Part shown: in pieces, positions 9,227-61,748 of the stretch
How positions within the stretch are numbered: the stretch's first letter is position 1
How the letters are laid out: the number at the start of each line of letters is the position of its first letter
Assembly: GCF_964204865.1 (NCBI RefSeq)
Contig: NC_135255.1
Span: forward strand, 9,763,135 to 9,827,134
Origin: Styela clava
Taxonomy: Eukaryota > Chordata > Ascidiacea > Stolidobranchia > Styelidae
DNA: 64,000 bases
Reading direction: 5' to 3'
Translations under genes and position numbers: made by a program
The notes under the pieces: model-generated
What the model was told of the DNA's origin: nothing
Database searches by the model: none
Seen by the model: the letters and a program-made list of their open reading frames with translations, nothing else

Positions 9227-9298
9227 GGGGACGTAGCTCAGTGGTAGAGCGCGCGCTTTGCATGCGCGAGGCCCCGGGTTCGATACCCGGCGTCTCCA
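9227..9298 (+). tRNA. tRNA-Ala (TGC)
   Basis: A 72-nt cloverleaf. The acceptor stem GGGGACG pairs with CGTCTCC (one G-T pair), the D arm is GCTC...GAGC, and the anticodon stem CGCGC/GCGCG encloses TTTGCAT with anticodon TGC. The T arm is CCGGG TTCGATA CCCGG, and the discriminator is A. The internal B-box GGTTCGATACC is intact. A short T run (gctttttgc) follows at 9301-9309 as a Pol III terminator. There is no intron and no encoded CCA. Confidence 0.96.
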
Positions 9299-9346
9299 CA
9301 GCTTTTTGCAATTCGTAACTCGAATTTGAATAATTTAGTCAAAACT

Positions 9347-9417
9347 TGCATTGGCCGGGAATCGAACCCGGGCCTCCCGCGTGGCAGGCGAGAATTCTAC
9401 CACTGAACCACCAATGC
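9347..9417 (-). tRNA. tRNA-Gly (GCC)
   Basis: A 71-nt cloverleaf on the minus strand. The acceptor stem GCATTGG pairs with CCAATGC, the D arm begins TGGTTCAGTGG, and the anticodon loop CTGCCAC carries GCC. The T arm is CCCGG GTTCGATT CCGGG-like, with discriminator A. The downstream TTTT (plus aaaa at 9341-9344) can terminate Pol III. It converges on the tRNA-Ala gene only 48 bp away. Confidence 0.95.
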
Positions 9418-15235: not shown

Positions 15236-18200
15236 TTACACGTCAGTTTCCACATGCGAAGATGTAATAGGCGAACTATTACTGATCACTTTAATGGATT
15301 CGTGACCCATCAAAGCTACATTATCGCAACATTTATTGTTCGGAGTTAGATTTTCTCTGCTGCTTTCTCGCGATAAATTTTTTGACATCAAGCTGGACGC
15401 ATCTTGGCGTGCTTGAGTCAATGACATCAACATCGTGGCGCCCTCTCCGATATTGATAGATGCTTGACTGCCGTGGATAGGAGAACCTGCATCAGATGAC
15501 ACGACGCTCTTTTTGCGTGTAAATGGTAGATATGGACACGTAGTGACGTGACTATACTGCGACTGTTCTTCTCCATCTGATTCACGATGATAAAAGTAAT
15601 TAAAGTTTGAAACGATAACAGGAACGGGTAGAGCAATGCAAAGCACGCCGGCGATAGCGCACAATGATCCGACGAATTTGCCGCCAACTGTTTTCGGACG
15701 CATGTCACCATATCCCACCTGAAAATAATCACAAAAATAGAATTATGGTTGGGTGTTAAATGAGCTTAAATCACGAGAAACACTACTTAGTGATGATCAA
15801 TCGTTTTGTAGCTGAAATCTCGATAATTCAGCAATAAACGGACGCTAAATTATTAGGGCGTGGAAACAAGTTTTGTCACTTGGTTCATGTTTCAAAAATA
15901 AGTTTAGAAATTAAATAACCGATCTGTTGCCAAAATGTTCATCGCTAAAGTAAATAGACAAAACAAATATTTGAAGAAATTTTTGTGTTGTGTAAAGTTG
16001 TTAAAGTTTACTTACCGTAGTCATTGTGACAACTGCCCACCAAAACGCCTCTGGAATCGACGTGAAATCGGTTCCTTGATTCGAATCGGCTTCGGCAAAA
16101 TACACTGCTGACGAAAACAATATAACTCCAATGAACAGGAAAAATATTAGCAGACCGAGCTCTCGCATTGATGCTTTTAAAGTTTGAGCCAAAATTTGTA
16201 ATCCTTTCGAGTGGCGTGAAAGCTTAAAGATGCGAAATACTCTTACAAGCCTTATAACACGAAGTATTGCAAGTGACATTCCTTTATTTGATGTATCCTC
16301 TCCCTCTCCTTTCGATAAATCCGTTCCAAGAGTAATGAAATAAGGCGCTATCGCCACAAGGTCTATTATGTTCATCATATCTTTGAAGAAATTGCACTTG
16401 TTGGGACAGCATAGGAAGCGTACGGTAACTTCTAAACTGAACCAGCAGATGCAGATAGTCTCAATAACCCAGAAAGGATTGTCGAACAGACTACGCGTTG
16501 GAGTTGTCGGCTCTGTGGATGTTATGCTATCTGATGATAATATAGCGGCAAGGGTTGGCGATATGATGTCAGAATTTGACGAAGATTTGATTCCACTGGT
16601 GCTGTTACTTGTTTGGCGATTTGGGTTCAGGGTCGGTAGTGTTTCCAGGCAAAAAGATATAATAGAAAGTAGAATAACAGAAACCGACATAATGGCGACG
16701 CATCGTGCAGCAGTGGAGCTTTCGGGATACCTATAAAAAAAGTACATTGAGAGTTAATTTTTACTTATCGACAAAAAGAGTGCACATTAGGTATAAGTCC
16801 GTATCGATTAGTTTTGTGTTTCGAATAATTTTAATGTTTTTCACTGATATATTGGCTTTGTGGCCTGGAATCACACATTACGGAATCGAGTCTTCTCTAT
16901 ATTTACCAAATCATAAACACAATATGCTGCTTGTTATGTCTCAGTTACTCGGAAGTTTTATTCAAACAGAAGGCTAGTGAAAACATTCTAATAAACAAGA
17001 GTTTTTGCGGACCATTCAACACTAACTTACTCGAACAACAGCCATATGCTTCTTTGTGGTTCCGTATTAGGCAGTGGCTTCTCTTTCTCTTTAATGTAGC
17101 CTTCATCCGCTTTATATTTTTCCAGAGCTGTTTGTCCGAGTTGATAAAATTTTATTTCTTCCGTAAATACGTCAATGGGAACATTTACAGGACGTCGTAA
17201 TCTTCCACCGCTCTGTTAATGGGAAAAAAATCTATAAATAGAAGGATTATAATGCAGAACGTTAAGTCCGATTAAAAACCCGTCAGTTGCCTCAACATGG
17301 TAATGTATACTCTAGTCAGGTTATTTGTTCCAGTTGATATTACCACAGATTCCACAAATTTAGGCCATTCGATTCAGAAGGTTAGTATCCCAGCGAGTTC
17401 TAATGGTAAAAAAATTCCTTCACTTCACTCAATAACTAAAGTAAAGTGTGTAAAAATACTATCTAAAAAATTATTGCCAACGCTACGCTTCATCTCCTAA
17501 AGGCTGAATTACAAAAATGTAACACTGTATTGTTATTAAAAATCAGGTAAACAAATATAAAACAATAGTTAGTTCCCAGTTCGAATCATTCCTATGGGAT
17601 TGAACTGGTATTGTTAGAACCCGTGATCGTTATCTGTCTTGAAGTCATATCAAATAGCGTGCGCTCTGTAGTCCTCAAAAGTTTTGTTTCGTTAAAGGTT
17701 GTGGAATTCCCCAATAATAACATTGCTGTTTATGTTGTCGCTATTCCCCAAAGCGACATCGAAATCTTGTTAATGAGAACGTTAAAATGAGTCACCTTGT
17801 TTTTGTCGTTAACAATTGACAACGCTACATGTATTTGTCGACAATATGCTTGTTGGCGGTTATTGAACCGCTCATTAACTAAGTTTGACAAACTAGTGTT
17901 TCATCACGTCCTCATTAGCAAGTCAATTTTATGCAAAAATAAAAACGTAGAAATGTATTACAATGCGATAACGACATCGTACAATCCGCTATAAGTTGCA
18001 TGTTAGGTGAACCCGTAACAGATTTAATGTAAAATAATTTTGTTCGTCATTTTTCGATGTTATAATCATATGTGGACATTTCTTTTTTAAATGTATCTGT
18101 ATATACTGCACAGTAAGTTTTTGTGATCCAGAAACCCAAACCTAAATTTACCTTTACATAGGATAAGTATTTGTGTACTACGCATCTGTAAAACGTTTTG

Positions 18201-21200
18201 GGTATGGACAGAGCTTTTGAGCGTTATCGGCAATTTAATCGAGAAAGATGCCGCAACGAGAACGGTCATGAAATATTTATTACGTTTCTTGCGCGCTGTG
18301 CAAATGGCAGTTACAGTATAACTCTAAAACCCGTAGCTTTGTGGAAAATTTATCATATTGATAATACACCCCATGTTCGGCTATACCATGAATTGAGTAT
18401 AAACATTGAATTTTCTGTATGCTCTTACTTGACCTTTCACATAAAGAATTTTAATATTGAATGAATTTTATCATGTTTATTACTGAGGAGGTATTTGCAC
18501 CGCGGCGTTCAAAATGATTTTCTTTGTTCTCATACGATAATGACAAATTGATAAATATGAATTATATTATTGGTATATTGGATGCATCTAATATTAAAAT
18601 TATTTTTTCGAAGGAGGATGGCAAAGAAACGTTTATTTACAATGAAAAATCGAGGCCAGACAAATATTTCGAAGAAGTTTTTCTCTATCTGATCGACCTT
18701 AGACTTCCCGGATTCAGGCTCCATCTCCGCCACCTCATCCATGTATTTTAAAGTTAGTTATGAGAAATATCATTGCGGAAGAATTCGGTACTAGCAAACA
18801 CAATAACCTATTATGTACAAGTAAGTCTACTGAGATATACAGTATGAAACGTCTTATTATTAAAGTGCAATTCCCAGCGATATATTATTTACTTCATACT
18901 GAGTTGAAATAAGTTTATTATTATATGAAGAAGAGACATTCCTAGCGACTGATTATGGATAGGGATGGCGGAATCGACTCCGGTATCGATTCTTCGTGGA
19001 TTTGACTAGAATCGATTTCGATGACTTGGAATCGATTCTTGGAGTAAAACTTGGATTGCAAACAAAGCATAACGTTTTGTGACACAAATATGTATAAACC
19101 GCTATGTGGAGTTGCTACTACGCGGCAAACTTCACTATATTTTACACTCTCTTCCCACTCGCTCGTTTGCGCGGGTCATGGACACGGGCCACATTTCATT
19201 CGAATACTTTTTTCTCTTATCTTTTGTCTATAAAATGTTTACACCCCAATCCGGCACACCGGAGTAGCAAAATAGCTCTTCAATAGGAAGAATGAAGCAT
19301 ATATTGAAAACCTGAACAATGATGGTATTGACAGATTAGAAGCAAGGGGCGGCGACATTGTTGACCAGGGAGGTGGAGGCTTCAACTGAGATATCAAAAT
19401 GTTTGAATGACAGAAATTTTGGCATATCGGCGACCCAAGAATATGTTGCAATGGTGGCAACAAAACAAAAATCTTATCCAAACATCGCAGTTGTCGTCCA
19501 AAAGTACCTCTTTGTCCCATCAACATCCGCTGCATCAGAAAGAGCATTTAGCTCAGCGGGGGTTAGACTTGAAGGAAGGCATGTAAACGAATTGAACTTT
19601 TTGGGTTGCAATAGATTTTTGTTTGCTACGACAGTGATGTTTTGGACCCAAAGTGGACATAGAGATCGTTTGGTTATTATGTTGTTTTTGTTAGAATTCA
19701 TTTTCTTGTTATTGTTAAAATATCTTTTCTCACCTACTGGAACTATTTATTGCTTTGAAATTTTCAATGGTTAAAAATTGTATTTTTTTTTCTCTAGAAG
19801 GCTTTTATTTTATGTATTTCAAACATTTCCGTGGGCTTTTGATGAATACGTTTTTTTGTGTGATTTTGTCTACTGTGACAGATTGAAAACCCATACTACT
19901 TAGTTTTGATCTTCGTGTCCATATATTTGAACATCGTCTCTTGTTCGATTTCCTATGGTATTGTTTAAGTGGGTATGTTTTCTCGGTAAGCTATGTCGAG
20001 GAATCAAGATTCGGAATCGAAAATTTAGGAATCGGATAATAATCGAATACTTGTAAGTAGTCATACTTAGCATTCCTAATTATGGAATCTATACCACATG
20101 AAAAAGTAGAAGATCCGATACAAATGGCGGAAGGTCTTAAGGTCTTTAAACAAAACGTTACTGAAACTTATTTGAATAAATTGATTTTATCGATTTTTTA
20201 CTTGAGTTGGGAATTCAGGGTTGATTCAATTGTCCAAAATGCAAGTTCCAATATGTGGTGGCTTATAACAAGTTCATTAACACGGGCCTGCTTGTGCCCT
20301 ATTTGTTCACGCTTTACATGTAACATTTTGTTATGGAGGGATTAATTGCTTGCCTCGGTTTGTTCATTCTTAAATGTTTATGGAAGGTTCAAAATGTCAG
20401 TGAGAACTATTTTAATTGTGAATGTATGTTGACCTTTTACGCTGATTTAATTCGTATATAACTTATACCATTACAGGTACAAACAATCGATGATCTCTTA
20501 TGATCGACACTTGGACATGTATGAATTTCCAACAATTTTCGTCCATGTTACATCAGGTGATTTACCCATAATGCACTCTTGAGCATAGGTTTAGTGAAGT
20601 AGCATTCAGATTTAGAGATTACATTCGTAAAATGTCACGTCCGTATCTGAATGAATGCTCTATATATAGCGTATTTCCTATTATAAGCAACATTTTCAGT
20701 GAAATTAACTGTTCTAGTACACAAAGCGCTTTAAATCATCAACCAAAACCGAAAGAATGGTCGCTCTGGTACGAGTAACAATAGAATAGATTTTAAAAGA
20801 TCAGACATGGTATTTATTACCTATCTCACTGAAAATACCCTTTTATCTACAAGCCATTAATAGCGACTTGAATCTAATGATTTTTTAGATACGACGAGGA
20901 AGTAGGGTTAGATGCTTTTTATTTCTCCGAATAAGAAGTCAAATTGAAGATTTTATTTCCATGTATAACAATTCGAATATAAAGTTCACGGCAAAATTCG
21001 AATGTTTAACCCATTTTCATAGTGCACATAATCTAAATTATTTGCTAGTTGCAAAAATGAAAAATGAACTCTTTATGCTCATCTCTACAAGTAAGGTCAT
21101 AAGTACTTGCAAAAAATTTTTACTCCATGAGGTGGTAGCGTGTTAATGAAATTTGTGAAATACAAACTAACTGGTGCTAGACCCAACAAAGGCGGCATCA

Positions 21201-24200
21201 GATTATGTGTACTTGTAATAAGTATGACGAGGGTAATGATGCCTGATATTTCTGAATTATTAAAATTGTTTATATTTAAAAGTGGTGAATATTTTATCCA
21301 TAATTTGCATGCATGAAAATTTAGCCAAAATATATGATATGGGTATCAAGGATTGGAGTGATGAAAATTATGTTGAAAAAATTGTATGATATGTTTGCTC
21401 GACGAAATACCATACTTGATAAAGCAAGTTGGACGGAAGATATGAAAACTTTTTGGTACTGCACTTAAACGATTTTGAATTCATCTATTATTCAGTAATA
21501 CCGAGAACACTCCTGTAATGAGATGACAAAATAAATTCAATAAATTATGTTTCAGTTCGCATATGCACTTCTGCATTGTTGACCCCGGGAGCACAAAATA
21601 CCCCGCTGTATGGATCTTAACTAGGTTTTTGAATTAGGAATTTATTTCGAACATAACATGGGCCCAAAATACGTTAACTATTGCCCAAAGTTCGTCCGTA
21701 ATGATCAGAATGGGTGATGCGCGCAGAACAGTCTGTGTATAAGTGAGTATACTTTTACCGAATGAAGGAATCTATCGGAACGATTTACTCTTACTTGGTT
21801 TTAAATTTCATTCTTCATTACATCACAAAATAAATTGGGCAGTCAATAGCAAATCAGGAGGTCAACGTATATTATAAACAATCATGGAAGTTTAATCGAT
21901 TTAGATTGACGTATTCAATAGCAAGAAGAAAATTGCGTTTCAAAATATGAAGCAATTCGATTGTCTTGCATAAAGTGAATACTATTTTCTATTTTATTTT
22001 GAATATTAGTTGAAATTCGATTATTAAGTTATCAAAAAAACATCGATTCGACAGATTTTGAATTTTAGTATCAAATGTGCTTATCGATGTAAGAGCCGGG
22101 GCTGATTCTTCGTTTTTTTTTATATTTTTTATTTTATTTATATATTATACAGCTCCCAAAATGGCAATATCTACCGTTACTCAAATCATTCTTTTTCATA
22201 TTTAACTTTACCACCATAATCTTTCTTTGCATGATTAAATTAGGCGGGAAATTATCACATGATCGTTTTATACTATTTCGGCGGAAAAAAGGCCACAGAA
22301 AATCCGCAGAATAAAAAAATATTTTGTTACGTATCACATCTGCACTTTTCACGCATTAGTTTTGCATTTTTCAGTTCGAATTCAACTAAAAGGCAAAAAG
22401 ACAGGACAATATTATCGCATAATTTGATTGCCGTGTCCACCTCTCGTGTCGAAGTATCATTGATCAACTTCGGGGGATTGGAAAAAATAGAAAATTATTT
22501 ATTGCCCATGGGTGATCGACTAGTATATAAAATTGAACAACAGATATGACATTACAGCGTATATCACGCAACAGAGCGTAGATAATGCCACGCACCGCAC
22601 GCAGCAAACCACACCTGCCCTGAAATGCGTGATGCGGTTAATTCGCTCAACGTACAGACGGAAAATGTCTTTCCTGAGGGAAATACGAATTTTAAATAAT
22701 CCCGCGGTTAAAAACAATCTGATTTATCATGCAAGGAGAAATTGAAACTCAGTTTATTTATTTTATTAGGTTTGTCTGATCTATTTTCGTTATATGTCCC
22801 ATTTTCATCTGCAATATGACGGAGATCGGAAAATATTTCAAATGGATGACGAATATATTATGTTTTGAAAAAAAAAATTGAACATCACAGATGAGTCGGA
22901 TTTTGAGTCAAACACACAGTACATAGGACAATATTAATCTAAGGTCTTACCTGATAATAATATAAAATAGCGTCGAATGAAGGCCTATTTCGGTCGAAAA
23001 AATATTCATTTCTCAGTGGGTCATAAAATTGCATCCTTTTTTCCCTGTCTCCCAACAAAGTATCTGGAAATTGGTCTAAAGTTTGCAATTGTGTCTCAAA
23101 TCGAAGTCCGGAGACGTTTATGACGATTCGTTCGCAGCAGTCGTGATCCATATCTGAAATGTTGAGTAAAAGTCGCAAAAAAGGCAAAAGTCTGAATACT
23201 GATATAACTGTCGTCTATTGGAGTAATTACAATGATGTTTGAATAAATGAATGCGATTTGAAAGGGAGTTTTAACATATGGCTCATGCCGAGATCAAAGC
23301 GAAGAGCTCGCCACGATTTACAGCTTGGAACTGCACATTAAGGTCTTAAAATTCAAACATGCTGTCTATATGGAAGACTTAAAATCTATTTCAGAGAAAA
23401 ATATTTAAATATCCAATACTTTTTAACAAATATATTACATCATATTATAGCTCAATTTCAAATTAATTAAAGTAAGAATTCATTGGCATTTTCCCAAATA
23501 CCTTTGCAGATATCAATTTAATTGTTATCACGGATCTCGGATATTATGTTTTGGATAATCAATAATAAAAATATTTGAGTTGTAAGCAAATTCAAAATTA
23601 ATATTCACATATAGTGAAATTTCATTTTGTAATATATTTGTAAAATTTAAGTCAGTTGTATGAAAAAAGAACAATATTAAATTAGTACTGTGTTTGTATG
23701 GTGAAATAAAATATTTTTTATACCTGCTGCGTGATCCAGTAACTTTTCTGTAGAACTCTCTGCCCGGGGAAAAAAGACATCTCCATCTACTCGCAGAAAC
23801 GAATGAGAGCTTGGAAACGTCCTGTAACAAAATTGCATTTTACTTAAGGTACGGAAAGTACTTTTTGAACTCAGATGCAGTCAACACCATGAGTTAAACA
23901 TTTCTGTTGTTGACAGTTCAAAAGATGATCTGTAAGAAAAAGACAATATTTTTGAACAATTGTCCAAAGATTTTTAACACATTCGTGGATGATATAGAAT
24001 TTGTCAGATATAGATATTTTTGTCAAGTCTCAATTCGATGACTGACCCTTTACAAGAATTTACTTCGAAATACCAGTTAGTTTATTATGTTTTTAACACT
24101 AGCAACACATTACGCATATGTGTGTTTCGTTAAGAGCATTTGATCCGGGAAAAGGCTTTGCTGGTTGAAATAAAACAGCGTCCACCTTTCCACTTCACCT

Positions 24201-27200
24201 TCGTGAATTATTTATTTATCGTCGGTGAAAAAGGTGGCTTCGATAATAGAAACTGCGAAAGAATATATGGAATTGTGACCGACAATTTATTTTTTGTTTG
24301 TACAAAGCTTCGAAAGAACAATATTCATCTCGTATTTCAGGATTTCATTTGGAATTTTCTAAAAACTACACATTAGGCAGACAAATATATTGTGGATAAA
24401 TGCAATTGTGTATTTAAAATACAAAACCCAAGTATAAAAACGAGTCACCCCATGCCGTACTAAAGTTGAACACAAGAAATGCAACCATTGGGCAAATGCT
24501 CCCATGAAGTTTCAGCTGTTCGAGGCTTTTGGGCGAAATGTAATTTTCGAAGGGTGATTTCCTTGAGCACAATAGCGTTGGCTGTTGAATAATACATTTA
24601 GCGTTCTTGAGCGTACAAGCTGATGTTATTGTACTTTCAATATAGCTTACATGTAAATTTACTTTATATGACTGGATAACATGGCGTCTTGCTTCAAGTT
24701 GCCCCGATTATAACGAAACATCAGTCTGCTTTTACACTACTAATATCTTTAAAGTTACCTTACTTCGCAGTTACATTTGAATAATTTGACTTTCATTTTG
24801 TAGCAAATACCTATGCATTCGCTACAAAAAGAGAAATTCTATAGTAAAAGAATTCGAATTCATTTTTTTCTGCTTCTTTCATTTCAAAATTTTGTAGTAA
24901 AAAAATTTCAGACACAAAGTTGACACCATTGGAATTTTTGTCGCAAATCTTTTGCAATATTTTTTGCTGCGACGGTCAATTCATCAAAATTATTGTAAAA
25001 CTAACTTTAGAAGAATTACACTCGCAAAATATATCTACCATGCCATATCGTGCACAAAAAACAAAAAATATCGATTGGAGGCGAGTACAATATATCACTT
25101 TATAAAATTTGCTGAATCTAAAACACAGATAGGAAAAATGTAACAACGATATCATGGAAGAAGCTGCGATTTTTAGAATAACATATTTCTACCGACCAAG
25201 CTTCAACATTGTGACAACTGCTCGCTGCTCGGGTAGGAATACCGGACAGGATTTTTGACCGGCCTGGCTAATGATATTAAAAAACAACGGATCACGTTTC
25301 AAACTGAACTTCATAATTTTATTGGGGAATTAATAAAATACAACTACTATATAAAATTACTTTTGTGGTATTAAACTGCTGGTGATATTAAAATAATTTT
25401 GTGGTTAGGTAATATACTATGTATTATTACATTGTATTATATTAATTTAATCCTGTAAATAGTTATTTGATTATTTATCATCATTCAAAATTTTTGCAAT
25501 ATTTGCATTTTCAGAAACATTATTCGATCCTTTTTTGATTTTTCTCAAATGATCCAGACTCAGTTGATTTAATTTGATCAAAAGATATAGAATACGAAGG
25601 TAAAACGAACTGGAATCGCTTAGTATATTAAAATTTGAACGACGAACATTCAGAATTAAAGAAAGTTTGCAAATATACTTCACACGTAAAAAAGCGTTAT
25701 CATCTCGAATATTTTCCGATTTAACCGATGCGAATTACATATCACAAGAAAATATGTAGGGAACTCAATTTTAGGTAAATAAAACTTTTTATCGATCTAT
25801 GCCCGCTCTGACACATCTGAGATAGACGTCCGAGAATGATGCCAACGAAAAGAATAAAAATTGAAAGCATAATATCTCTGAAAACGCAATTTTGTTTCCG
25901 AGAACATTCTGGAGATCAGACTGGATTAAAATTGCGTCTGCTCTTAGGATCTCATTTAGTGCGTGATTGAAGCGATCGATTGATCGATGCTTGAACGAAT
26001 GACTCCAGTCAGACGTTGTTTAGCAAAACAAACTGAGTAATAGATTAAACTAAATTAATATAAGAAACGATAAATCAGTATGAAAAAAAAAATAAAAATC
26101 AGTAAATGATAATGCACAGAAGCACTATTCGAAAAACTGTTAGACGACAACAACATGCACATTCGGACTGGGTTCCACCACACACACACAAGGAGAAACC
26201 GTACCTATATTTACAAATATATCCTCTTTGTCTACATGCTAATGTTTTCGCAAAAGGGGTCAAATTTGTTGATGTTGCATTTACAGTTCAGTCATTTATG
26301 TATAAATATAAGTTTTCTGCATATAGCAAATAATTTGCTGACATTTACACAGAAATTAATTGGCCATACAGGTTCAGACGCAAGGTACATGCTGTTTATT
26401 GCTATATTTTCACTGACCCGAAATATAGTCAGCATGTTGAATTGTTATAATTAGGAATACAACTGTATATTCACTTTACTCCCTTCTTTCGATTACTCAA
26501 ATGCAACTATGACCACGGGTGTCTGGTCGATAGATAATTATGTGGTATTTATGTGTACATTGTTGTAGTGACTGAGCCTAATCCCGGACAAAGGATCAGC
26601 ATTGTTCTCTACATTGTATAATTCTGCATTCAGATAACTACAATTTTACTAGATCAGCTACTGGATCAGATCATCTTTTCAGTTAATGCGGATAGAAGTG
26701 ATAACAAAAGGCTAAAATTTCCCCGATACGAGTATTTTTTGACAATGATCTTGTAAGGACCAAATCGATACAATATAACGTTAAAACAAATAATTAGTAT
26801 GGAGACTGATACATTTATAACAATTCGTAGGAAGAGCGACTAAAGATTGAATCAATTCTGTGATTGCCATTCTAAATATGCGACTCCAAAATTCTATATG
26901 AAAAAACGTTTAAGAATTCGATTAAGTGTAATAATTTAATCATCGGTACCTCCTCCTCAAGGACGAGTCCAACACCCCTTGATATAACCTGGAGTTGGGA
27001 CTTCTTTTAGTTCCTTCCTCACAACGTGTTGACGCAACGACACAGTTTCCAATAGACATCTTCTTTACATGCTATGTAATCCGACCTGGTTAATAACTTC
27101 TTCCTTAATCTACGCTCGAATCATATTTTCTATTTCTGTTGAGAATAGCGTTTGTGTACTAATTAATTGTTCTATGTATAAAATAGCAGTATGGGCAATG

Positions 27201-30200
27201 AGTGATAATTTCAAGAAATTTCATTGATCGTCTTAAAATAAACCTAATAATCAACATGTACAGGATGAACAAATATAGGTCTTTTCATCTCAGCCGTTGA
27301 AGGCATAATTACATCTACCCATGGTACGGAAATGGTAATTTACCAAAAGTGCTAAAATGCTAAAAAGAGGGATGGGTGAAAAAGAGTTGATTAGAGCTCA
27401 AAAAGTCTGTCCGTTATACACTAGGTATAATAAACACTTTCTTTCAGCCAAACCTTATATGTATTGCGCGTCGTGGGTTATCTTAGGCCTACAACCTATT
27501 TAACTCCCACATTCTCTTTTAGAATCACATCAAATTTCCCAATAATTTTCAACTTTTCCCTTTCATCAAATTTTTGCTTTTTCCCTTAACTGTTTACCTA
27601 TTGATCTATGTAGTTCAAACCAGAGAGATATTATTAAAATTAAACGGTAAGATATCACGATTTATTACTATTTATTATAATTCCTGAATAATTATCGGAA
27701 ACGAATATAAAATTACCCTAAATAGCCTGTCGAACTGAAATCCGCTATATCTCGTTTGCCATTGAGAAAATAGTACCGCAGCCAGAATGTGTTTTTGATC
27801 AGTCGTCTTACGTTTACAAGAAAATTCTGAATTCACATTCCACAAATTGACAGCCTAGAGACTTAGAAGGTAAAATGAAATTTAGGAGCAATATGACAAT
27901 TTGATCCCATGAGAGCGTTTCCTTTTGTCTGGCGTCTGATTTTAACGCATACTAACAATCGATACTGTCAAGTCAAAGCCCGTTAACTACTTTACTCAAG
28001 TACATTAGCCTTGAAGCTGAAACCACGTGGCATCATTATTATAATATTTTGAAGGAATCAACGCGTTGCGGTGCAGTTTCCTGCAAAAGGAGTGTGAGAA
28101 AGGAGTGCAAGTATTGCATAATCTGATATATCGTACTCATGTTTTAACAAAGCTAGCTAGTGATTTAAAGCCTACAACAGGGCTACTAAACTGGCGGACC
28201 GCGGTCCGAATCCGGACCTTTCGAGTATTCGATTCGGACAGCGCCCGATTCTATATTTCGATGCATTGGCCCGTTGGGTCAGGATATGTGTAGGTTTCCT
28301 TATATTAATGAATCAATTTTTTTTTCATATTTTTGGAAGTTATGTTATTATTTGCACCAAACTTATAAGAAAAGAACTGTGACGCCGTAACATTTAGAAT
28401 AGCGTTGACTGAATTAGCGAACAGTCACAAGCCGGAAACTATCGTACGGTATGAATGTTTAGTTTTTTGCTTTTTCCCAGTTTTCCACGAGTCGGTTTTC
28501 TGTTTACTCTCTAACCTCAATATTGTAGGCACTGAAATATATTTGGGCGCACTGTGAAACTATTTTCTGGTAAGACGGGACCCCAATAATTTCAAAGTTT
28601 TGTATACGGATTTTCGGTGAAAATAGTTGAGTAGCTCTGGCCTACAATACGATATATGAAACTTGATCTTTCGCTACAAGCTTAAACATTGTAATGAACC
28701 AACTTGAACCAATGAATCAAGCACTTGCGAAATAGTTTTTACGCCGTTTGATACTCGTATGTGAGAGCATGGAATTTTGAAACGGCAGTTTATTGCTATT
28801 GAAATATGAAATCACTTTGCGAAATGGTTATTGTCGCTGAGGTTTTGACAAATTATCACACGATCACCTATGCTCAATTGAGTATTATTAGGACAAACTA
28901 ATTTAGGTACTTAAACATATCATAGAATCACAGTAATTTCAAGTTTTCGTTATAGCCAACTGATCACTATGTTACGTGTTCGTTTGACATTGCGCTTCGA
29001 CTACCTGTGGGCTGTATGCAGAGCAAAGCGTGTGTCTCCATATTTCGCCAAAGTGACTTCAACTTGTATCTGATTTGTTACGATATGAATCTGGTTGTTA
29101 AACATGAAAGGTAGGTAAGCAATGCAATACTATCGTTACACCAACTAACAGTCTGTAACTGTAATCCTTTATAAACTGAATTGGTACTTGTACCGGTAGC
29201 TTATAGAAACATCGATTACGGTGTTATTGAAGTCACCCTTGTTTTAGGTAAAATTTGGAAACGCTTACATTCAATCTAAAGTATATATTGATAGTAATAT
29301 ATTGATAGTGGCAATATACCTCCACTGATCATATCAATTCGAATATTTGTAACTGTTATTAAAATATTTAATAGAATAATAATGAACCATATAAACGTGA
29401 ACTCTTTGTTTATCATCGAAAGATTTAGTTCTGAATATGTCAATAGCAATATTGAAAACCCTGTAAATACACAAATCGCCTTATTTTGTTTTAAAGCAGT
29501 GTAGCTAACTAATTTTGTTGTTGACATTGATCTTACTCTATTTCGTGCTAAAATCTGTTATCGTCAACCCAACCCACAATTTTAGTGCAAAACTACCTGA
29601 AATGAGTGTGATTCATTTCAAATTAAGTTTGCTTCTACTAAATTAGGCGAATAATGTCGGCCCAAGGATGTGTGTTGCAAGATCAAGCCTACCCAATTAT
29701 CCTCCAGTAAGCGACTGGGACAACATTTCTAACTGATTGGATTATAACCGTATTAACACCATGCGCTTCGATACCCCTTCGGTTATATTCTTAGCGTTTC
29801 TGGATAAATTATCTAGACTACCCAAGATTTAAAAGACACAATCCGGAAAGAATTTGACTTCATCATGTTGTTTTATCAATATACATACGGGGGCCTTTGG
29901 TATTGGAAATCGATCCTCGGAGTCGGGAAATACTCTTTAAACGAAAAACTTGCTAAAAAATAACCAGACACTACAAAAGAATTTTAGCGCCGAGGTACCA
30001 GCATGTGTCGCGAATACCCACTGAAGTTTTATGAAATTTAAACAATCTTCCGATGTAGACCGAAAACGCATTTCACGTGTAACGGAAGGCTGTAATAAGT
30101 CGCGAATATTACGCATTAGATAACATCACCAGGACAAATCACTTTAAAATATACATAACAATGATTTATTTTTTAACAATAAGACTAAAATGCTTTTCTT

Positions 30201-33200
30201 GTAAATCCTTTAAAATCAATTTCACTTAGGCAAGAAATTGAATAAAAATTCAGAATTCGTTGTTACGAAACCAACCTGTATACTTGGTTTGATTTCTCGT
30301 TGAAAAAATCTATTTGCCGTATTGCGTCTGCTATTGATACAATTTTCGACAACTGGTTTGATGGAAACACTAATCAGACTGGGTCTGATTATTTTTCTCG
30401 ACCTTTCAAATTACTGCTTCCAAACTACTCGAAGTTATGCAGATATAACATTTAACAGATTTTCCTGGCGTTCACAGCACAATGTGACTACTAATAATCT
30501 TTGTTATTGGTACCTGCGAACGTGCGTGTGTTTCATTCGAACGCACATGTGTCGTAAAATTTTATAACACATTTATATATGTCTTATTGTCTACAAAAAA
30601 AAGAAAAACAATTTTCAAAACGTTGCGATCGAATGTATATTATTAATTTTTTTTTATTATTCTGAAGGGAGGTTGCTTCATTTATTTTGTTTTTATCAAT
30701 TATTTTACCGTTTTTTATACTGATTAGGATTTCAAAATAAACTTATATATATTATATTACTTATATTCATCGATCGACAATATTTCATTTAGGAGGATAT
30801 GGAAATTTTTGACCTAGGCTGTTCCAACTCGGGTTTTCTGCTACTAAAACAAATTGTTGGCTATTTCTAGCCATCCTCCTAGAAACTATTATCTAATTCC
30901 CAATTTTAGAACGATATGTTTAACATATGTAAGAAAAATTAAATAAAATAGGTTCGTCCGACCTGTCCATTTCTCTTTATTAATCCAGTTCCCATTTTTA
31001 CCTATATGAATTTTCCCTAGCATTTTTCATCAGTTTAAACATAAAACATATAAATACTAATTTTGGTAATTCAAGAATTAACTCGTATACGGTATAATGC
31101 ATTCCAAACATCAACCCACTAGTTACATTTCTTGCAAGGAAAATTCAAAGTATTAGTTATTTCTCTGACAACTATTTAAATACAGCGGTCTAATTATTTA
31201 AACGGCTATTTCGTGGTAATAAAGACAGACCCACGACGTCATCTCTATCTCGTCAGCAATAATATACCAATAAAGGAAAACAAATCGAAAGTATAAAATA
31301 CTGCTATTTTGACTTCTTATTTGTCTCCAGTGAGAAAATAATTTAGATTATCGACATTGCTGTTTCATTTATAACGGCTTGCGACTCTGCCAAAAGGTTA
31401 TAACGTCAAAAGAAAACTATGTTCAATAATATGAATGATATAAGTCCATCGACACATCGGGCGAAAGCTGTAGCGGCTACCAATGGTTGAACTAAACTTT
31501 TCCCATTACCCTTCATTAGCGATTTACTGAGGTGCTTCGGTACAATAGACATATAATGTGTAATGCACTAGTGTAATATGAAGCTGAAGGTGAAAAGACG
31601 TACACAGCTGTTACGTCTTTGCGACTGGTTATTTTACCGCACATGATCCTGATGCTTTTTGAATAACTCTGTTATGTTAGCACAAATTTTCTTTAAACTA
31701 AGAAGAAATTTACTCATTTCACCTCATTATTGAACTGAATTTGATTCATTTTACTCTACATTTAATCTAATTATTCAAAACTCTTTCTCGTATATATTTT
31801 TTATATGACTTCGCTTTGAAAATTGAAAATTCTTCTCTGTACAGATTCTACCATTTGGCATTACAATGATCTGAATATTTATTGCATTCCGCCAGCAAAA
31901 AAAGTTCACGTCATAACAAATTTCAACAAAGAAAATCGCTGTCGTTAAGAAGGGTTAAGATAAAAAGGACAATCGGAGTGACAGGATTAGATTTATGACA
32001 CATTAAAGCACGGTGATGATCGATATATGCCAATTACTTTTCATCAATAATAAAATTATGATCTTCATTAAAGTAGTATTGAAGAAATAACTAAATTCAA
32101 AAATCCACACAATTCTCAAATGCTCTGCTATCCATGCGTAAACGATCATGAAAATATCTACACAAAATTATACAAATTGAAGCAAATAGGTTCGATGCGG
32201 TTCTTGTAAGTCACTCCAAACAATGCTCAAAGCAGTACGATTGAATATATATATGGTCATTCTGTATAAATATTGGAAAATTGAAAGAAAGTCAGAAACG
32301 CTTATGGAAATAACTGGGGGTTTTAAGGCAATATATTCTCATTTATCTATATGGTCTAATCCAATTTAAAAATTATGTTTAGTGAAGGCATAGAAACCGT
32401 TTTTTTATCAATTTCATTTATTACAGAAATCAGTGAAAAATCGAAGAATGGTTTTAAACCTAACTCGCGAGACAGGCAACAATTATGAAACAATTTGAGT
32501 TTTGACAAACGAGAGATTTTGTGATAAATACTTCATTCATTCCGAACTTTCTTTATTTGGCTGCTCATTTAAATAGTGATCAAATAATCAGAAAAACGAC
32601 ATATTCGGATACTTGTGTACATCAGGAATCCTATCACGATTTTTCCAACAAATTTTCCTTGATTTACTGTCATTGTTATCAGTTTTCTTTTTCCTTACCA
32701 TAATTACATTTTCCTTATAAAAGCGGATATGTGAACTTAGAAATATTATTATTTTTTTATTATAAAACCATTCTTTTTTATATCGGCGTTTAATAACATC
32801 TTTGAAGAAGGAGATGGGAAACCTTGGGTAAAAAATTACCTTTATCAGATAATAAGTGAATATCGAAGGAATTTCTGTCGAAAGTTCATAATGGTAATAA
32901 AAAGTATTAGTAAGGCAACTGCAGCAGGTACGAATTGGAACTAAGGATATTTGGGGCGATTAAAGAAGCTGAAGACAACATGCTCTTCAGATTGTTTTTC
33001 AAATAATATCCATGAATTAGGGGAATTTGTTTAATTAAATCTGTTACTGCTACCATACGATGAAGTGCTCGCAATCAATATGCTTGTGCAAAACGTAAAT
33101 AAACACACGATTTCTCAAACTATCGGATTTTCACCACTTTCGTTTGAGATATGAAACACGAACACGACATTGTGATTTTGTTGTCAAATTATGACGTCAC

Positions 33201-33290
33201 TCGAATTTACCTCTGATTATGGTTCCTGTGGTGGCAGGTGGTAAATGAACCCGCCACTCCCGAGTCCAAGCCCGCCATTGCAAACTCCAT
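15236..33290 (-). CDS. Voltage-gated K+ channel, Shaker/Kv1 family (586 aa, six coding exons)
   Basis: Pore-forming subunit of a tetrameric plasma-membrane delayed-rectifier or A-type K+ channel. Exons on the minus strand: 33290-33211, 23821-23724, 23153-22951, 17212-17031, 16730-16016, 15718-15236. All junctions are GT-AG and phases match throughout. Residues 1-27 ([11 protein letters not shown]..., then HHRNHNQR) resemble an N-type inactivation ball. Residues 61-187 are the T1 tetramerisation domain ([28 protein letters not shown]). S1 is about 199-219, followed by a long S1-S2 loop with an NST site at 230. S2 is about 273-293 and S3 302-323. S4 is at 341-365 with regularly spaced Arg/Lys ([17 protein letters not shown]). 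S5 is about 378-399, the selectivity filter TMTTVGYGD is at 423-431, and S6 has the PVPV bend. The C-terminus ETDV is a PDZ ligand. Arg433 occupies the external TEA site. An in-frame upstream ATG at 33395 exists, but the ball-like start at 33290 is favoured. Best match by eye is KCNA4-like. Confidence 0.93.
19358..19620 (+). pseudogene. hAT transposase C-terminal relic
   Basis: The frame contains [20 protein letters not shown] followed by [10 protein letters not shown], the hallmark dimerisation region of hAT (Ac/hobo/Tam3) transposases: a Tyr-Pro block, then the Ser-Glu-Arg-x-Phe-Ser-x-x-Gly motif. The RNase-H-like catalytic core and zinc-finger N-terminus are absent. The frame then runs into the dispersed repeat, so the tail beyond about 19620 is not transposase. 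No functional enzyme is encoded. Confidence 0.85.
19640..19950 (+). repeat. Dispersed repeat family, copy 3 (nested in hAT)
   Basis: Core attgctttgaaattttcaat followed by ggttaaaaatt, then the 3' block cttcgtgtccatatatttga. It is embedded in the hAT element right after the transposase relic, so this copy inserted after the hAT arrived, or was mobilised with it. Confidence 0.7.
28178..28639. mobile_element. hAT-type MITE (462 bp), perfect target duplication
   Basis: The left end is CAGGGCTACTAAACTGG and the right end, on the minus strand, is CAGAGCTACTCAACT. The flanking 8-bp duplications are identical: gcctacaa at 28170-28177 and at 28640-28647. A ggcggaccgcggtccgaatc block follows the left terminus, a hallmark style of hAT MITEs. 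Non-coding. It lies in Kv intron 1. Confidence 0.9.
33192..33199. promoter_or_regulatory. Palindromic CRE (TGACGTCA)
   Basis: A consensus cAMP-response element, TGACGTCA, lies about 10 bp inside intron 1 of the Kv gene, next to the donor of its first coding exon. Position close to the gene start fits a regulatory role, but a single 8-bp match is weak evidence. Confidence 0.3.
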
Positions 33291-36200
33291 GAGTATTTCA
33301 TCCGTCAAATATATTCCGAAATTTATGTTAACTACTCTTATTTTCTGTCTTTGTACGATCAATACTTTACCGTTGTCGTATTGTATCTCAAGCATACATT
33401 ATTGCCTAAGTTATATTAAACCATAACCTTATATTAGTGCTACATGTAAATCTGAAAATAAAAAATTGTAGTAGGTTAGAACAATGAACACGTTAGTGTT
33501 TGTTAGGCATTTATAAAATTATTCCAGTGAGTTGTTGACTCAATTGTGAAGATGATGTAAAGGACTCAAGGACGACCAACCTACATACATGTTACCAATA
33601 CAAAATACTATTTCTAGAAATCAAATTACTGGGTAAACTATTTAGCTACGAGGGGGATAAAAACGTGTGGTTGTATTATTCTTAACATTAGGGTGAAATT
33701 GTACCCCCATCTGCAAGCCGTCTGTGTCACATGGTGTATCAGTTTATCGTCTTCGATTTCTCCAACATTTAGTGATGTAGTGGTTAAACGACTGCGAGTT
33801 CCACAAACCTATGAATGAAATTTGGCATGTGTTTTTTAAAACCTTCTTGTCATTTAATTTCAAAACACTAAAATTTGTATGCAAGCAAAAATGTCGTTTT
33901 AATTAATTAAATACAATTTAATAATCTAATTGTAGAGAAAAATTTATAGTGATCGTATACTTCTATATTAAGGTAGCTACTGTTCGAAGCAATCGTGAAT
34001 AAAAATGCTAAAATTAAGAAGACTAAGATTTCATTTCCATACTTCATATAAGCTGCCTTTCAAACAAACTAATACTACTTAAACACAGCCGGATCAATTG
34101 AGACAGGAAACTTACTACTCTTATCCTATAATTCGCCTTATCAAATCCTAAATCAAGCTAACCCCTCGAGGACTATCGTGTAATTAAGGAACAAGACAGA
34201 ACAGATGTGTAATATCAAAAGAAGTTTTCCATTTCTGGTAAGACTCGACGGTTCTTGGATACATTCATTCTATCCTATCATAGAAAAAGTTATATTTATT
34301 CGCTAAAACTTGGGGGAAATCTAACAGAAATAGTTACCAAGCAACACAAATTCGGCATTGGGTTCGCTGAAACAATAAATTAAGATTATGATCTCTTCTA
34401 TCTGATGCTTACAGTACATTTTGGTTTATATTTCCTCCCACTACTCTACAATATTGTAGCATATATAAAACTCGAGAGAGATTAATGCGTCCCACAGGCA
34501 TTGAAACGGTAAGGGATCAATAGCCAATCTTGCGAGGAATATCCATTAGACTTGTGGTTGTATTCTCTCGCACAAGTTAAGCAGGACGTTTTGCTCTTGC
34601 CTCATAAATAGTAATAAGACGATTCAAATTGGAACCGTCAACGGCCGACTTGACATCTTTTAACATCATTATGTTGAGGTGTAAATGAGCTCTTAATCTA
34701 GCATTGTGCGTGTTTGGTGTTTGTTCTTGATCGTATCGTGGATAAGTGTTTCTGCTGGAAATGACGAAGATTGCGTTATTCATACCATTATAGACATCAC
34801 ACTTTTTTGTTGGTACTTTTCTCTAAATATTGCTACGACTGTTTGTACATCGACACGTGATGTGAAGCTTTAAGAATGTATTATCTATTATATTTACTGA
34901 ACTATGACAACAATGAAATCGGCAGCAGTTGGTGGTGGCCCTTCAACTTAATTGAATGGTCTTCCATGGCAAGGTTATTGTGACATTGTAAACCTCGGAG
35001 TATTTTACACAAATTAGCATTGATTTAAAATAAATGCTGTTGCTTTTTTTACAAACAAATTGTCTTTATAATTTATAACATCCAAATACAATTTAATCTT
35101 AGTCAATATTTCATTTATATCACCTCTCCTAAGCATATGCTTTGTACAGATAGCGTGAATTGTGCGAGATACCATAAATAAGATCAGTACATCTAGAGAA
35201 AATACATTACGCTTCTACATTAAATTAACGTCTAATTGAAAAATGAAGAATATCTGAACAGAAGGTTTTGTTTGCTTGGGATAGTGTTTTTATGTAGCTT
35301 CAACTCCGGAAGCCATTTTATTCACCAAATCATAAATAAATCCATGTTTGAAATCATCAATTCTTCGACATGTTAGCGTTATATCTGCCGACTGACTTTT
35401 CAAAACGAATCATTCAAGTGGTAAATTCGCAAAAAGGCTTGTTCTCGTTTTTTTTTTTAATATCACATCTACTTTGCAATATATTACATTCAGCTATACA
35501 AATTACACGTGGTAATGACCTCCCCGACTAACATCGTATCACGGCGATCTACCAAAATAAAATCAAGGTGGTGATTTTATCTAATCGCTTTATCGTGAAG
35601 CAAATACCGAAGTCGCAATTCAATAACCGAAGAAACTACGTCAATAATCTATAACTAATAACGTAAAATATTGATAATTGAAGAATTATATGGCGTACGT
35701 TGAACCATAAATAATACCGCACATTAACTAATATACATTAAAATTACACACCGTATAGCGTAAATGAGCCATCAGCGCATTATATATTTAGTAACAGGAA
35801 TTACCAGTATGATCATGTTTTGGAATGTATTAAATATGGAAATTTCAGTTTATACTTGCTTTCATATTTCGACTATTTACTCCATTAATGAAATACCCGA
35901 AATTCTCAAACGCAACTACGAATGTTTAGAATTCATGTACCAGTGTCCAATGCCCACGAAAGGGTAATAACTTAAAATAAAGGTACGGAGAATTTATATC
36001 ATATCGTATTCAGTCTTAGAAAACTTAAAATTTACCTGCGTCGCGCGTTCACCGTGTAAGATTTCAATGCAATCTGACACAGTTATGTTTGGAGCAATAC
36101 TTGACTCATTTATGAAGGTTTTCTGAAAGGCATTTCGTCCACCATCATCGAAGAAATCATTTCAACAATTTTCAATCACAACTTATTATCTCACGAATTA

Positions 36201-59100: not shown

Positions 59101-60348
59101 AAACGAGAGGACATCAAACACCGCTTGGCAGGAAATTCAAATCACTTATAATGTACCATGGAAAATAGGTTCAGAATTTTATTCTCCAAGAAATTTGGCA
59201 ACCAATTGATTACAGATGGACAAATTGAAAGTTGCTTCAGAACATGGCGCTGATGACGTTATATGCTGGTCGACACAAAAAGAAGAACGTTTAGTTTCAG
59301 ATGAAGACATCACAAAAGAGTTGATGGAGAAGACAAATGGAGGATTTGATGGTGTTATTGACGTTGTCAATTCCAGCATGACGTCGAAAAGAGCATTTTC
59401 AGCATTGAAGCGGGTAAATACCATTCATTCATAACCCCAACGTAGAGAACATATTTATCTGAATTTATGGTGATTTGTATGCTATTTTCATTTATATAGA
59501 CAGAAATGTCGTTTTCTTAAATTGGTGTAATCATCCATTATACTTTTCTTCTGCAGAACGGTACTCATGTTATGGTTGGTTTGTATGAAGGATCGATGAG
59601 CATCCCTCTAAGACCTATGGTTCTGACTATGAAGAGAATATTAGGATCGTATGTTGGGAGTATACAGGAACTGAATGAATTGGTGAAAATGATAGAAACA
59701 AGAAAGGTATCATCGATTGTATTAATGCGTTGGATGCTAAGTTCAGAGAGAAAAATCAAGCGTGAGAAAAATATTATTACAGAAATAAGAAATGTTTTGA
59801 CTATAGTGTCAGATCAATGTATATATTCTCATTGTTCAGATTCATATATATTCGTTTCTTTGACCGACAAAGTTGCTTTGACCAATTGCTTTGAAATTTT
59901 CAGTGGTTAAAGATAAAATATTTTTTCAGAATGCTATTATTACTTTTATTTATTCCTAAATTTTCTAAGAATCTTATGAAATATGATATTTCATCCAAAT
60001 TTGCGCTGTATTGTTTTTTAATTATGGGAACACGGTTTTTAATTCGCCAAGCGTGACGGCTGACTGTGAAAATTCTTGCGATTAAAAACTCGGAAGTTTT
60101 TTGAGGGTACGTTACCGGTAATGTCAAAGGTAAGGACTGCTTCGCTCTGGTCCACGTGTCCATCATTTTGAGCGTTGCTCTCTTGTAATTAGCAAATTAG
60201 CGTTTTTGATATTCAAGTTTCAACTGTTTTTGCTTTAATATAGGTGAAACCACCTCCAATTATTCCGTACAAACTGGAAGAAATCGAGACAGCGTGGGTA
60301 GCACTAAAATCAGGAAAAATGCCCGGAAGAGGCGTTATTCGGTACTGA
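53189..60348 (+). CDS. Zinc-type medium-chain alcohol dehydrogenase 1 (356 aa, eight exons)
   Basis: Predicted NAD-dependent oxidoreductase of the MDR superfamily; substrate unknown. Exons: 53189-53284, 56258-56378, 56759-56897, 57265-57416, 57839-57948, 59216-59413, 59557-59706, 60244-60348, all GT-AG and phase-consistent. Catalytic zinc ligands are Cys36 (FCGICHSD), His59 (GHE) and Cys149 (LLPCSG). Structural zinc ligands are Cys91, Cys94, Cys97 and Cys105 (CGKCDEC...LC). The Rossmann motif GAGGLG is at 178-183, and Asp204 at the end of the second strand favours NAD over NADP. The C-terminus GRGVIRY is typical of the class. The loop after CHSDLH is short compared with the neighbour at 61749. 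Intron 1 is 3 kb and holds nested hAT elements; intron 7 holds a dispersed repeat. Polyadenylation signal at 60368. Threonine/sorbitol-type or general alcohol dehydrogenase cannot be distinguished. Confidence 0.92.
53630..53765 (+). repeat. Dispersed repeat family, copy 6
   Basis: Starts gacaaaatggaccgttttgg, continues through accaatcgctttgaaattt, and ends with ctcgtgtccatatatttgag and cattgctcactcg. The middle is deleted compared with copy 7. It lies 42 bp left of the hAT insertion. Confidence 0.65.
53800..56123. mobile_element. hAT element with nested insertion (2.3 kb)
   Basis: The element proper is 53808-56115. The left end is CAGTGGTTCTCAAAC and the right end, on the minus strand, CAGTGATTCTCAAAC. 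Flanking 8-bp duplications are ccctacat (53800-53807) and ctctacat (56116-56123), 7 of 8 identical. Both arms carry AGAGCCGC blocks next to the ends. A second hAT is inserted in the left arm. The unique right part (55640-56060) contains a minus frame (55858-55619) of uncertain nature. Located in intron 1 of the dehydrogenase. Confidence 0.85.
53959..55622. mobile_element. hAT-like element nested in the 53.8-kb hAT
   Basis: The left end CTAGAGCTGGGCAAAAT and the right end, on the minus strand, CTAGATTGGGCAAAAT form an imperfect inverted pair. The flanks cctaacaa and actaacag share the hexamer ctaaca, consistent with a decayed 8-bp duplication. Subterminal attcgaat motifs repeat on the left (attcgaataataaaatattc) and appear on the right. 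No transposase was recognised. Exact borders may be off by one or two bases. Confidence 0.65.
57971..58075 (+). mobile_element. Possible hAT left end
   Basis: CAGGCTTGTCCAAGGGACAC followed by repeated GTCCCA(T)CCCATGGGA blocks, within intron 5 of the dehydrogenase. It resembles GTCCCATCCC-bearing hAT termini; no right end or target duplication was found. Confidence 0.35.
59855..60187 (+). repeat. Dispersed repeat family, copy 7
   Basis: The most complete right half: ttgaccaattgctttgaaat, ttcagtggttaaagat, the interior, then ggtccacgtgtccatcattt and tgagcgttgctctcttgt. It lies within intron 7 of the dehydrogenase. Confidence 0.7.
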
Positions 60349-60367
60349 ATGAATTCGTGAATGATAC

Positions 60368-60373
60368 AATAAA
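60368..60373 (+). terminator. Polyadenylation signal, dehydrogenase 1
   Basis: AATAAA, 20 nt after the stop codon, in the context gatacaataaaaag. Confidence 0.6.
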
Positions 60374-60492
60374 AAGATTTGGTTGTGCATTCTCTTTTAA
60401 GCAATGTCATATAGGGTACTTATTTTATGTATTGCGGAGGAAATACTAGATCATACTTTATTTAGGCTGCAGGTGATAAACATGCTTCAAGT

Positions 60493-60743
60493 CAGGGGTG
60501 TGCAACCTTTCATACAGGAGGGCCAGTACCCTTATTTAACAAAGACATCCTAGTAGTTGCACGCACAAAAATTTTGGTTATTGATCTTATGACATGCGTT
60601 GTTCGACTCAGTTCTAGGCTATACAACACAACGGAGTTGGAACACGTTTCGCGGGCTGGGCAACATTTAAAACAGGCCCTTCTCCGCGGGCCGCACAGTT
60701 TTCCCTTGTATGCTGCTTTTGGCCCGCAAGTTTCACACCCCTT
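60493..60743. mobile_element. hAT-type MITE related to the 11.0-kb element
   Basis: The left end CAGGGGTGTGCAACC matches the left terminus of the 11010 MITE, and the right end has GTTTCACACCCCT. Interior GCGGGCC/GGCCCGC blocks are shared in style. The flanks cttcaagt and ctctgagt agree at 5 of 8 positions, so the insertion is old or the right border is slightly misplaced. Confidence 0.6.
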
Positions 60744-60944
60744 CTCTGAGTCAGCACTCCTACCAAAACCCTTATTTTGAGTATTATTTGCCACTGAGGA
60801 ATTTTGTTTTTGCTTGTCGTTGTTCGCTCCAAATGAGTTGGGCATAACCAGAATACAGACAGACGCTAGAAATAAGATGGCTAAAGGGAATCTTTTAATA
60901 TAAAAACAAAAACAAATAGTTCTGTTCTTGAGTATGAAACTCAT
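60510..60944 (-). CDS. Candidate secreted Cys-rich protein, partly MITE-derived (144 aa, tentative)
   Basis: Unspliced minus-strand ORF starting at a true ATG. Residues 1-40 contain a basic start and a long hydrophobic run (RFPLAILFLASVCILVMP) like a signal peptide or anchor. A polar, Asn-rich segment with NSS and NNT sites follows. From about residue 68 the frame enters the MITE 60493-60743, which supplies seven cysteines in 32 residues (70, 73, 84, 91, 94, 95, 101). Minus-strand AATAAA at 60462-60457 lies 48 nt past the stop. Alternatively, residues 1-60 are a first exon that splices out at GTAGGAGT near 60764 to an exon elsewhere, or the frame is accidental. No family is recognised. Confidence 0.35.
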   Translation of the reverse strand: MSFILKNRTICFCFYIKRFPLAILFLASVCILVMPNSFGANNDKQKQNSSVANNTQNKGFGRSADSEKGCETCGPKAAYKGKLCGPRRRACFKCCPARETCSNSVVLYSLELSRTTHVIRSITKIFVRATTRMSLLNKGTGPPV

Positions 60945-61748
60945 TAATTAACTGCGCGTTATACAAATTATTCTGTAAGTAATAAGGATGATGGCATTTT
61001 TCACTGATTTTGAGAACAAAGAATAAAGTATCTCCCGTCAGGTAACAGCTACTATAATAGAAAACACTGCGAATGTGTAGTCTCATTCCTACCAATTTTG
61101 TTGTACCTGGATTGACGGGGTAGTTAGTTATCGAACTGACATTCAAAGTGGATCAATTTTTGCAACAGCAACGATAAATCTTGAAAAATATTAATATGAT
61201 ATGGGATAAAATGTACGACGAGATTATAAACAATATTTTACGGATAATTTCAAATATTGAAGAAAACAGAACATTGTTAGCTTCTGAACCCGGAGGCAAC
61301 CAAATGTGTATACTGTAAATACATTTGTCAATCTTAAGCTGCTTCCGGCGACCAATTTATTAATACTTCAAAAAGCCTTATGCAAATTTGGGAGATAGCG
61401 AATGATAAAAAAAAATCGTACAGATCGTGAAGAATTAGTTCAAGCAATACATAATTAACGTATATCTGATGTTATAGTGTGATGTTATATATATGTGTAT
61501 AAAAGTTGAGTAAGCTAGAAATAAAAGATAATTTTCGGGAAGCCAACAACTCATCGCTTCAACATTTCTGTATAATCATAATAAAGTTAATAATGAGTAT
61601 ATATCATACTTCATTGACATATTCGAAGGATCCATGCATTTTGTGATAGCGATTGTGAGAGTAAAACATTTAATTTCTAATAATAGAAGGCAATAGAAAA
61701 TTTATATCACTTTTATCATGATGTTCTACAGGGGTAAAATTATACATA

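Follow-up and report, generated by a model that had tools for sequence, protein, structure and literature searches.

Introduction

The N-terminal inactivation domain named Kv1AnID has been reported from vertebrate Kv1.4 and from molluscs, annelids, hemichordates and urochordates (PMC3634772). As described in that source, its hallmark is a glutamate at position 2 (E2) together with a charged residue (E, D or K) at position 9, and a second conserved block (Block 2 of Figure S2) is found before the T1 domain. Shaker and most ecdysozoans are reported there to be without the Kv1AnID acids, and adding one negative charge to the ShB ball (L7E) is enough to abolish its inactivation (PMC3634772). The same source describes Kv1AnID genes as generally simple and often single-exon, states that the ball disappeared along with this simple organisation in most ecdysozoans, and links retention of Kv1AnID to simple genes and its loss in ecdysozoans to complex, alternatively spliced ones.

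The N-terminus of Aplysia AKv1, a characterised example, reads MEVAMAGIEGNGGPAGYRDSYHSSQRPLLRSSNLPNSRSFP (PMC7987177). According to PMC3827413, it consists of a pore-blocking part, which is removed in del2-5, and a pre-block tripeptide, and the deletion of residues 2-5 abolishes the N-type inactivation of AKv1. Here we describe a 64-kb stretch of Styela clava DNA (64,000 nucleotides, the window), in which the minus-strand segment 33290-33211 is very probably the first coding exon of a Kv1 gene, predicted from its sequence to encode the bilaterian ancestral inactivation domain (Kv1AnID) of a channel with fast A-type current.

Results

Identification of a Kv1 gene in the window

When six minus-strand exons of the window were joined, a coding sequence of 1761 nt (586 aa) was obtained, which stays in frame to a TAA at 15238-15236. 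All five introns are GT-AG and their phases are consistent, with exon 2 ending in phase 1 and exon 3 beginning at 23153. The parts of the gene model are as follows (a slash within a DNA motif marks a splice junction or the base before an ATG).

33211..33290, minus strand: exon 1, start codon and putative N-terminal inactivation domain, residues 1-26 and two bases of Arg27
23822..33210, minus strand: intron 1 of the spliced gene model, 9,389 nt, phase 2
23724..23821, minus strand: exon 2, linker, with the NQRTFP block spanning its junction with exon 1 and a weak donor, GCAG/GTATAA
22951..23153, minus strand: exon 3, N-terminal portion of T1, through YYYQ
17031..17212, minus strand: exon 4, remaining T1 and linker, SGGRLRRP... 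to LLFE
16016..16730, minus strand: exon 5, S1 to pore, YPESS... to VTMTT
15236..15718, minus strand: exon 6, VGYGD filter, S6, C-terminus HVETDV and stop

The weak donor of exon 2 scores 0.16 bits and the other donors 3.1 to 7.2, the donor and acceptor scores coming from a consensus matrix.

The 586-aa protein possesses a T1 domain, S1-S6, the TVGYGD filter and a C-terminal ETDV, its last residues (SSHVETDV) forming the ETDV PDZ ligand that is typical of many Kv1 channels. A Pfam scan of the whole protein gave BTB_2 at 98.8 bits against a cut-off of 21.4, and Ion_trans above its cut-off. Among the PDB matches listed, the nearest solved chains were Kv1.2 (654 bits), Kv1.3 (639) and Shaker (629), with T1 chains of Kv1.1, Kv1.2 and Kv1.3 also present, while the non-Kv1 chains listed scored much lower (Kv3.1 272, Kv2.1 265 and Kv4.2 257 bits). 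Judged from its sequence, the gene is a Kv1 (Shaker-type) alpha subunit gene.

Two further features were observed inside this gene. A match to the Rfam family RF00485 (potassium channel RNA editing signal) covers 15605-15718 on the minus strand at 92.5 bits (gathering 51); its start coincides exactly with that of exon 6, and it may reflect coding conservation of S6 instead of editing. Intron 3 holds a hAT transposase C-terminal dimerisation region on the plus strand (19340-19774).

The first exon and its splice join

Exon 1 starts with the ATG at 33290 and its frame is open down to 33211, where the donor is AATCAGAG/GTAAATTC, the 3' end of the exon reading CAGAG/GTAAAT. The acceptor GTTACAG/G at 23821 completes the codon split by this donor (AG+G = Arg27). 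An earlier note on this DNA had proposed this exon, its donor, its phase and the join to 23821, all of which were borne out, as the split codon gives Arg27 and the whole gene reads in frame. The basic patch that it had also placed in exon 1 is present but weak, being made up of R22, R27 and three His.

The GC content of exon 1 is 0.55 over its 80 nt, a value reached by 0.57% of the 80-nt windows in 23,900-64,000, and the GC peak is restricted to exon 1. In the same interval, five minus-strand ATG-to-donor candidates were found that end in phase 2 with a donor score at least that of exon 1, and the GC content was at least 0.45 in only two of these five, namely exon 1 and a version starting from its own inner ATG, which share one donor. 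Within the limits of sequence evidence, exon 1 was confirmed as real.

Comparison of the N-terminus with AKv1 and other inactivation balls

The first nine residues, MEFAMAGLD, were compared with MEVAMAGIE of Aplysia AKv1, and six of nine are identical while eight of nine score positively. Both Kv1AnID acids have their counterpart in the predicted protein, E2 and a charged residue at position 9 (D9), and the pre-block motif (A/V)-(G/S/C)-(I/L/F/A/V) is present as A6-G7-L8.

33264..33290, minus strand: predicted Kv1AnID core, with E2, the pre-block tripeptide A6-G7-L8 and the acidic D9

Scored against AKv1 residues 1-10, the 10-mer of exon 1 reached 32, the best of the 1,409 ATG-started 10-mers on both strands of the 64-kb window, with the runner-up at 20. 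In 60 simulated 64-kb windows (Markov-1) the maximum was 29, so that this score was never attained, and the analytic chance expectation for a score-32 match is 1.8e-4 per window, or about 1.1 over 376.6 Mb. Since about one chance match is thus expected genome-wide, the weight of the match comes from its place, on the strand of a Kv1 gene and upstream of it, with a phase-correct donor.

A second match to AKv1, NQRTFP against NSRSFP, lies across the junction of exons 1 and 2, its R being created by the splice, and is a candidate counterpart of Block 2 of Kv1AnID. With the block fixed beforehand, this match was reached in 10 of 20,000 shuffles, and a match at its level occurred in 29 of 3,000 shuffles when any AKv1 6-mer from residue 12 onward was allowed. 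Apart from this block, the alignment with AKv1 beyond the first ten residues is weak and gapped. A PDB search with the 61-residue N-terminus alone (E up to 10) returned six unrelated chains and no Kv1 ball, and the whole-protein Pfam scan placed nothing on the N-terminus beyond a STAS match (residues 32-78) that stayed below the cut-off. When the protein was searched against its own genome, residues 1-31 were covered in only one of 32 matches, which was the gene's own locus.

We consider it extremely improbable that exon 1 is a random open frame ending in a fortuitous donor, with the gene's actual first exon at another place; the exon is short and roughly one such 10-mer match is to be expected somewhere in the genome, but such a frame would have to combine strand, phase, donor, GC peak and a junction-spanning block. 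The MEFAMAGLD match, its low chance expectation and the NQRTFP block together make the reading of exon 1 as an inactivation ball well supported.

The N-terminus shares with Aplysia AKv1 (AKv1.1a) the MExAMAG(I/L)(E/D) start, E2, the acid at position 9, the pre-block tripeptide and the N-x-R-(S/T)-F-P block. It differs in having L8 and D9 where AKv1 has I8 and E9, and in a shorter chain between ball and block, RTFP starting from residue 27 here and RSFP from residue 38 in AKv1; moreover, ball and chain are spread over two exons here, AKv1 being compared as a protein. With the ball of vertebrate Kv1.4 (KCNA4; PDB 1zto, 1kn7) it has in common the ME-AM start, E2 and the acid at position 9 (E9 there, D9 here), with four of nine residues identical. 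The Kv1.4-like ball claimed by the earlier note therefore holds, AKv1 being even nearer with its six of nine, and the best local alignment scores 57 against AKv1 residues 1-41 and 26 against Kv1.4 residues 1-36. Nothing like the tandem second domain of Kv1.4 appears in the Pfam listing for the whole protein.

Drosophila Shaker B works on the same N-type principle, and the pre-block hydrophobic residue corresponds to ShB Leu7 (PMC3827413), but Shaker is described as being without the Kv1AnID acids and the ShB ball as intolerant of the L7E charge (PMC3634772). The comparison with Shaker B drawn in the earlier note was inapt, as PMC3634772 treats Kv1AnID as a separate ball type with acids at positions 2 and 9, and its surprise at a ball in an invertebrate Kv1 was overstated, given AKv1.

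By analogy with the AKv1 work, from which both the pore block and the kinetics are inferred, a free N-terminus of the tetramer would enter the open pore. MEFAM would be the pore-blocking part, with E2 close to the N-terminal amino group, while the pre-block motif A6-G7-L8 would settle in the side-window vestibule, and the remainder of exons 1 and 2 would form the chain leading to T1. Such a channel would be expected to give a fast A-type current.

Candidate start codons

Several other start codons were considered for the gene, and these are given below with the acceptor-like site upstream of exon 1.

33393..33395, minus strand: upstream in-frame ATG (MLEIQYDNGK...MEFAM), context TAATGT/ATGC, AT-rich; would bury the ball if used
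33452..33453, minus strand: possible 5'UTR splice acceptor ACAATTTTTTATTTTCAG, by consensus only
33276..33278, minus strand: M5 codon, possible second start (initiation inferred), context TTTGCA/ATGGC
23836..23838, minus strand: candidate ball-less start, an in-frame ATG shortly before exon 2, which could be used from an intron 1 promoter

Translation from the in-frame ATG at 33395 would add 35 residues before MEFAM, so that the ball would no longer be free and N-type inactivation would be absent. Although the frame is open from 33398 and the mRNA could include this stretch by way of the good acceptor-like site at 33453-33452, the context of the ATG (TAATGT/ATGC) is poor, three short out-of-frame ORFs precede it within the candidate exon, and the stretch is AT-rich like the adjacent non-coding DNA. 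AKv1 and Kv1.4 both start at the methionine of MEVAM, and we consider the 33395 start very unlikely.

With MEFAM taken as the beginning of the protein, M1 is flanked by C at -3 and G at +4, and an out-of-frame overlapping ATG is located 11 nt upstream of it. The M5 codon has G at both -3 and +4, an ideal Kozak context, which arises because the codons of A4-M5-A/V6 are GCN ATG GNN. It is conceivable, though in our view unlikely, that the ball includes a start codon able to switch it off, with ribosomes that skip M1 beginning at M5 to give MAGLDSG.... By analogy, this product would be equivalent to AKv1(del2-5), without N-type inactivation and with the pre-block motif kept; AKv1(del2-5) is reported to retain a negative activation shift (-14.6 vs -11.3 mV). 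If M5 were used, one mRNA would give both A-type and delayed-rectifier subunits, in proportions that could be tuned. Since MEVAM of AKv1 and Kv1.4 has the same residues, an M5-type start could hold there too, and would then be relevant to Kv1.4 as well. Kv3.3 is similarly described as using a pair of in-frame start codons on a single mRNA, one giving the ball and the other omitting it, the second being at residue 77 (PMC11480015), as against residue 5 proposed here. Among the papers listed in literature searches for a ball-removing alternative start, none was seen on M5 of a Kv1 channel.

Besides M5 at 33278, the candidate ball-less starts are M at 23838 and M at 23151 (exon 3). Exon 1 may be real and yet supply just one of multiple N-termini, with further promoters giving ball-less channels as in Drosophila Shaker, an arrangement that we regard as possible but doubtful. 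Consistent with it, the first intron is 9.4 kb long, an in-frame ATG with A at -3 stands sixteen bases before exon 2 and another ATG at the T1 boundary, and protostome Shaker genes are described as able to splice alternatively (PMC3519636). Yet an in-frame ATG close to an acceptor is not rare, and intron 1 has just one other comparable phase-2 ATG-to-donor candidate (24796-24759, 12 codons, GC 0.29), as found by a scan that is blind to weak donors, exons <18 nt and non-coding first exons.

Gene structure and other Kv1-like loci

The simple or single-exon structure that is general, not defining, for Kv1AnID genes is absent here, as the gene has six coding exons, with the ball exon lying 9.4 kb away from the remaining ones. 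Protostome Shaker genes can be complex, with functional alternative splicing, according to PMC3519636, so that introns alone are unsurprising. The locus is a new example of a known device, and its gene structure is the less usual part. An ancestral Kv1 ball would thus be retained in a split gene, on an exon open to skipping or swapping, which raises the question of whether placing the ball on its own exon was an intermediate step toward Shaker-style N-terminal switching.

A second, more divergent Kv1-like gene with more introns was found at C3:25120494-25126251. Its ungapped T1 match breaks between YYYQ and (S/T)GG, the same point as in the gene of the window, and it is unbroken between FE and YPESS and between TT and VGYGD. 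No ball-like start was found near this gene in 40 kb (25,095,001-25,135,000, including about 25 kb upstream), the best score being 17 against 32 for exon 1. Elsewhere in the assembly, a COX1 family search gave no match, leaving no mitochondrial code to be read, and the arthropod cuticle domain PF00379 likewise gave none, a negative that would argue against an arthropod although the controls of that search were silent too.

A search of contigs from other genomes gave 22 loci, none of which was usable as a ball comparator. One of them (L033, filed under Epulopiscium) has 63% identity and reads as an intronless animal Kv1 beginning MEVSLVDFDN...; it is probably fish contamination, and we take it to be KCNA10-like. 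The other 21 loci have 24-38% identity, except for L054, a 31-residue match at 61%. No relatives were found in viral contigs, and the first 25 kb of the window gave no match when searched against plasmids.

Other features of the window

An open frame on the minus strand (60510-60947) encodes a product that begins with hydrophobic residues and contains a stretch rich in Cys, and has no Pfam match. Zinc alcohol dehydrogenase exons are present on the plus strand (59521-62659), with ADH_N above and ADH_zinc_N below the cut-off; the ADH_zinc_N piece lies at a lower coordinate than ADH_N, so that they may belong to different genes. The interval 9227-9417 carries a pair of divergent tRNA genes, Ala(tgc) and Gly(gcc).
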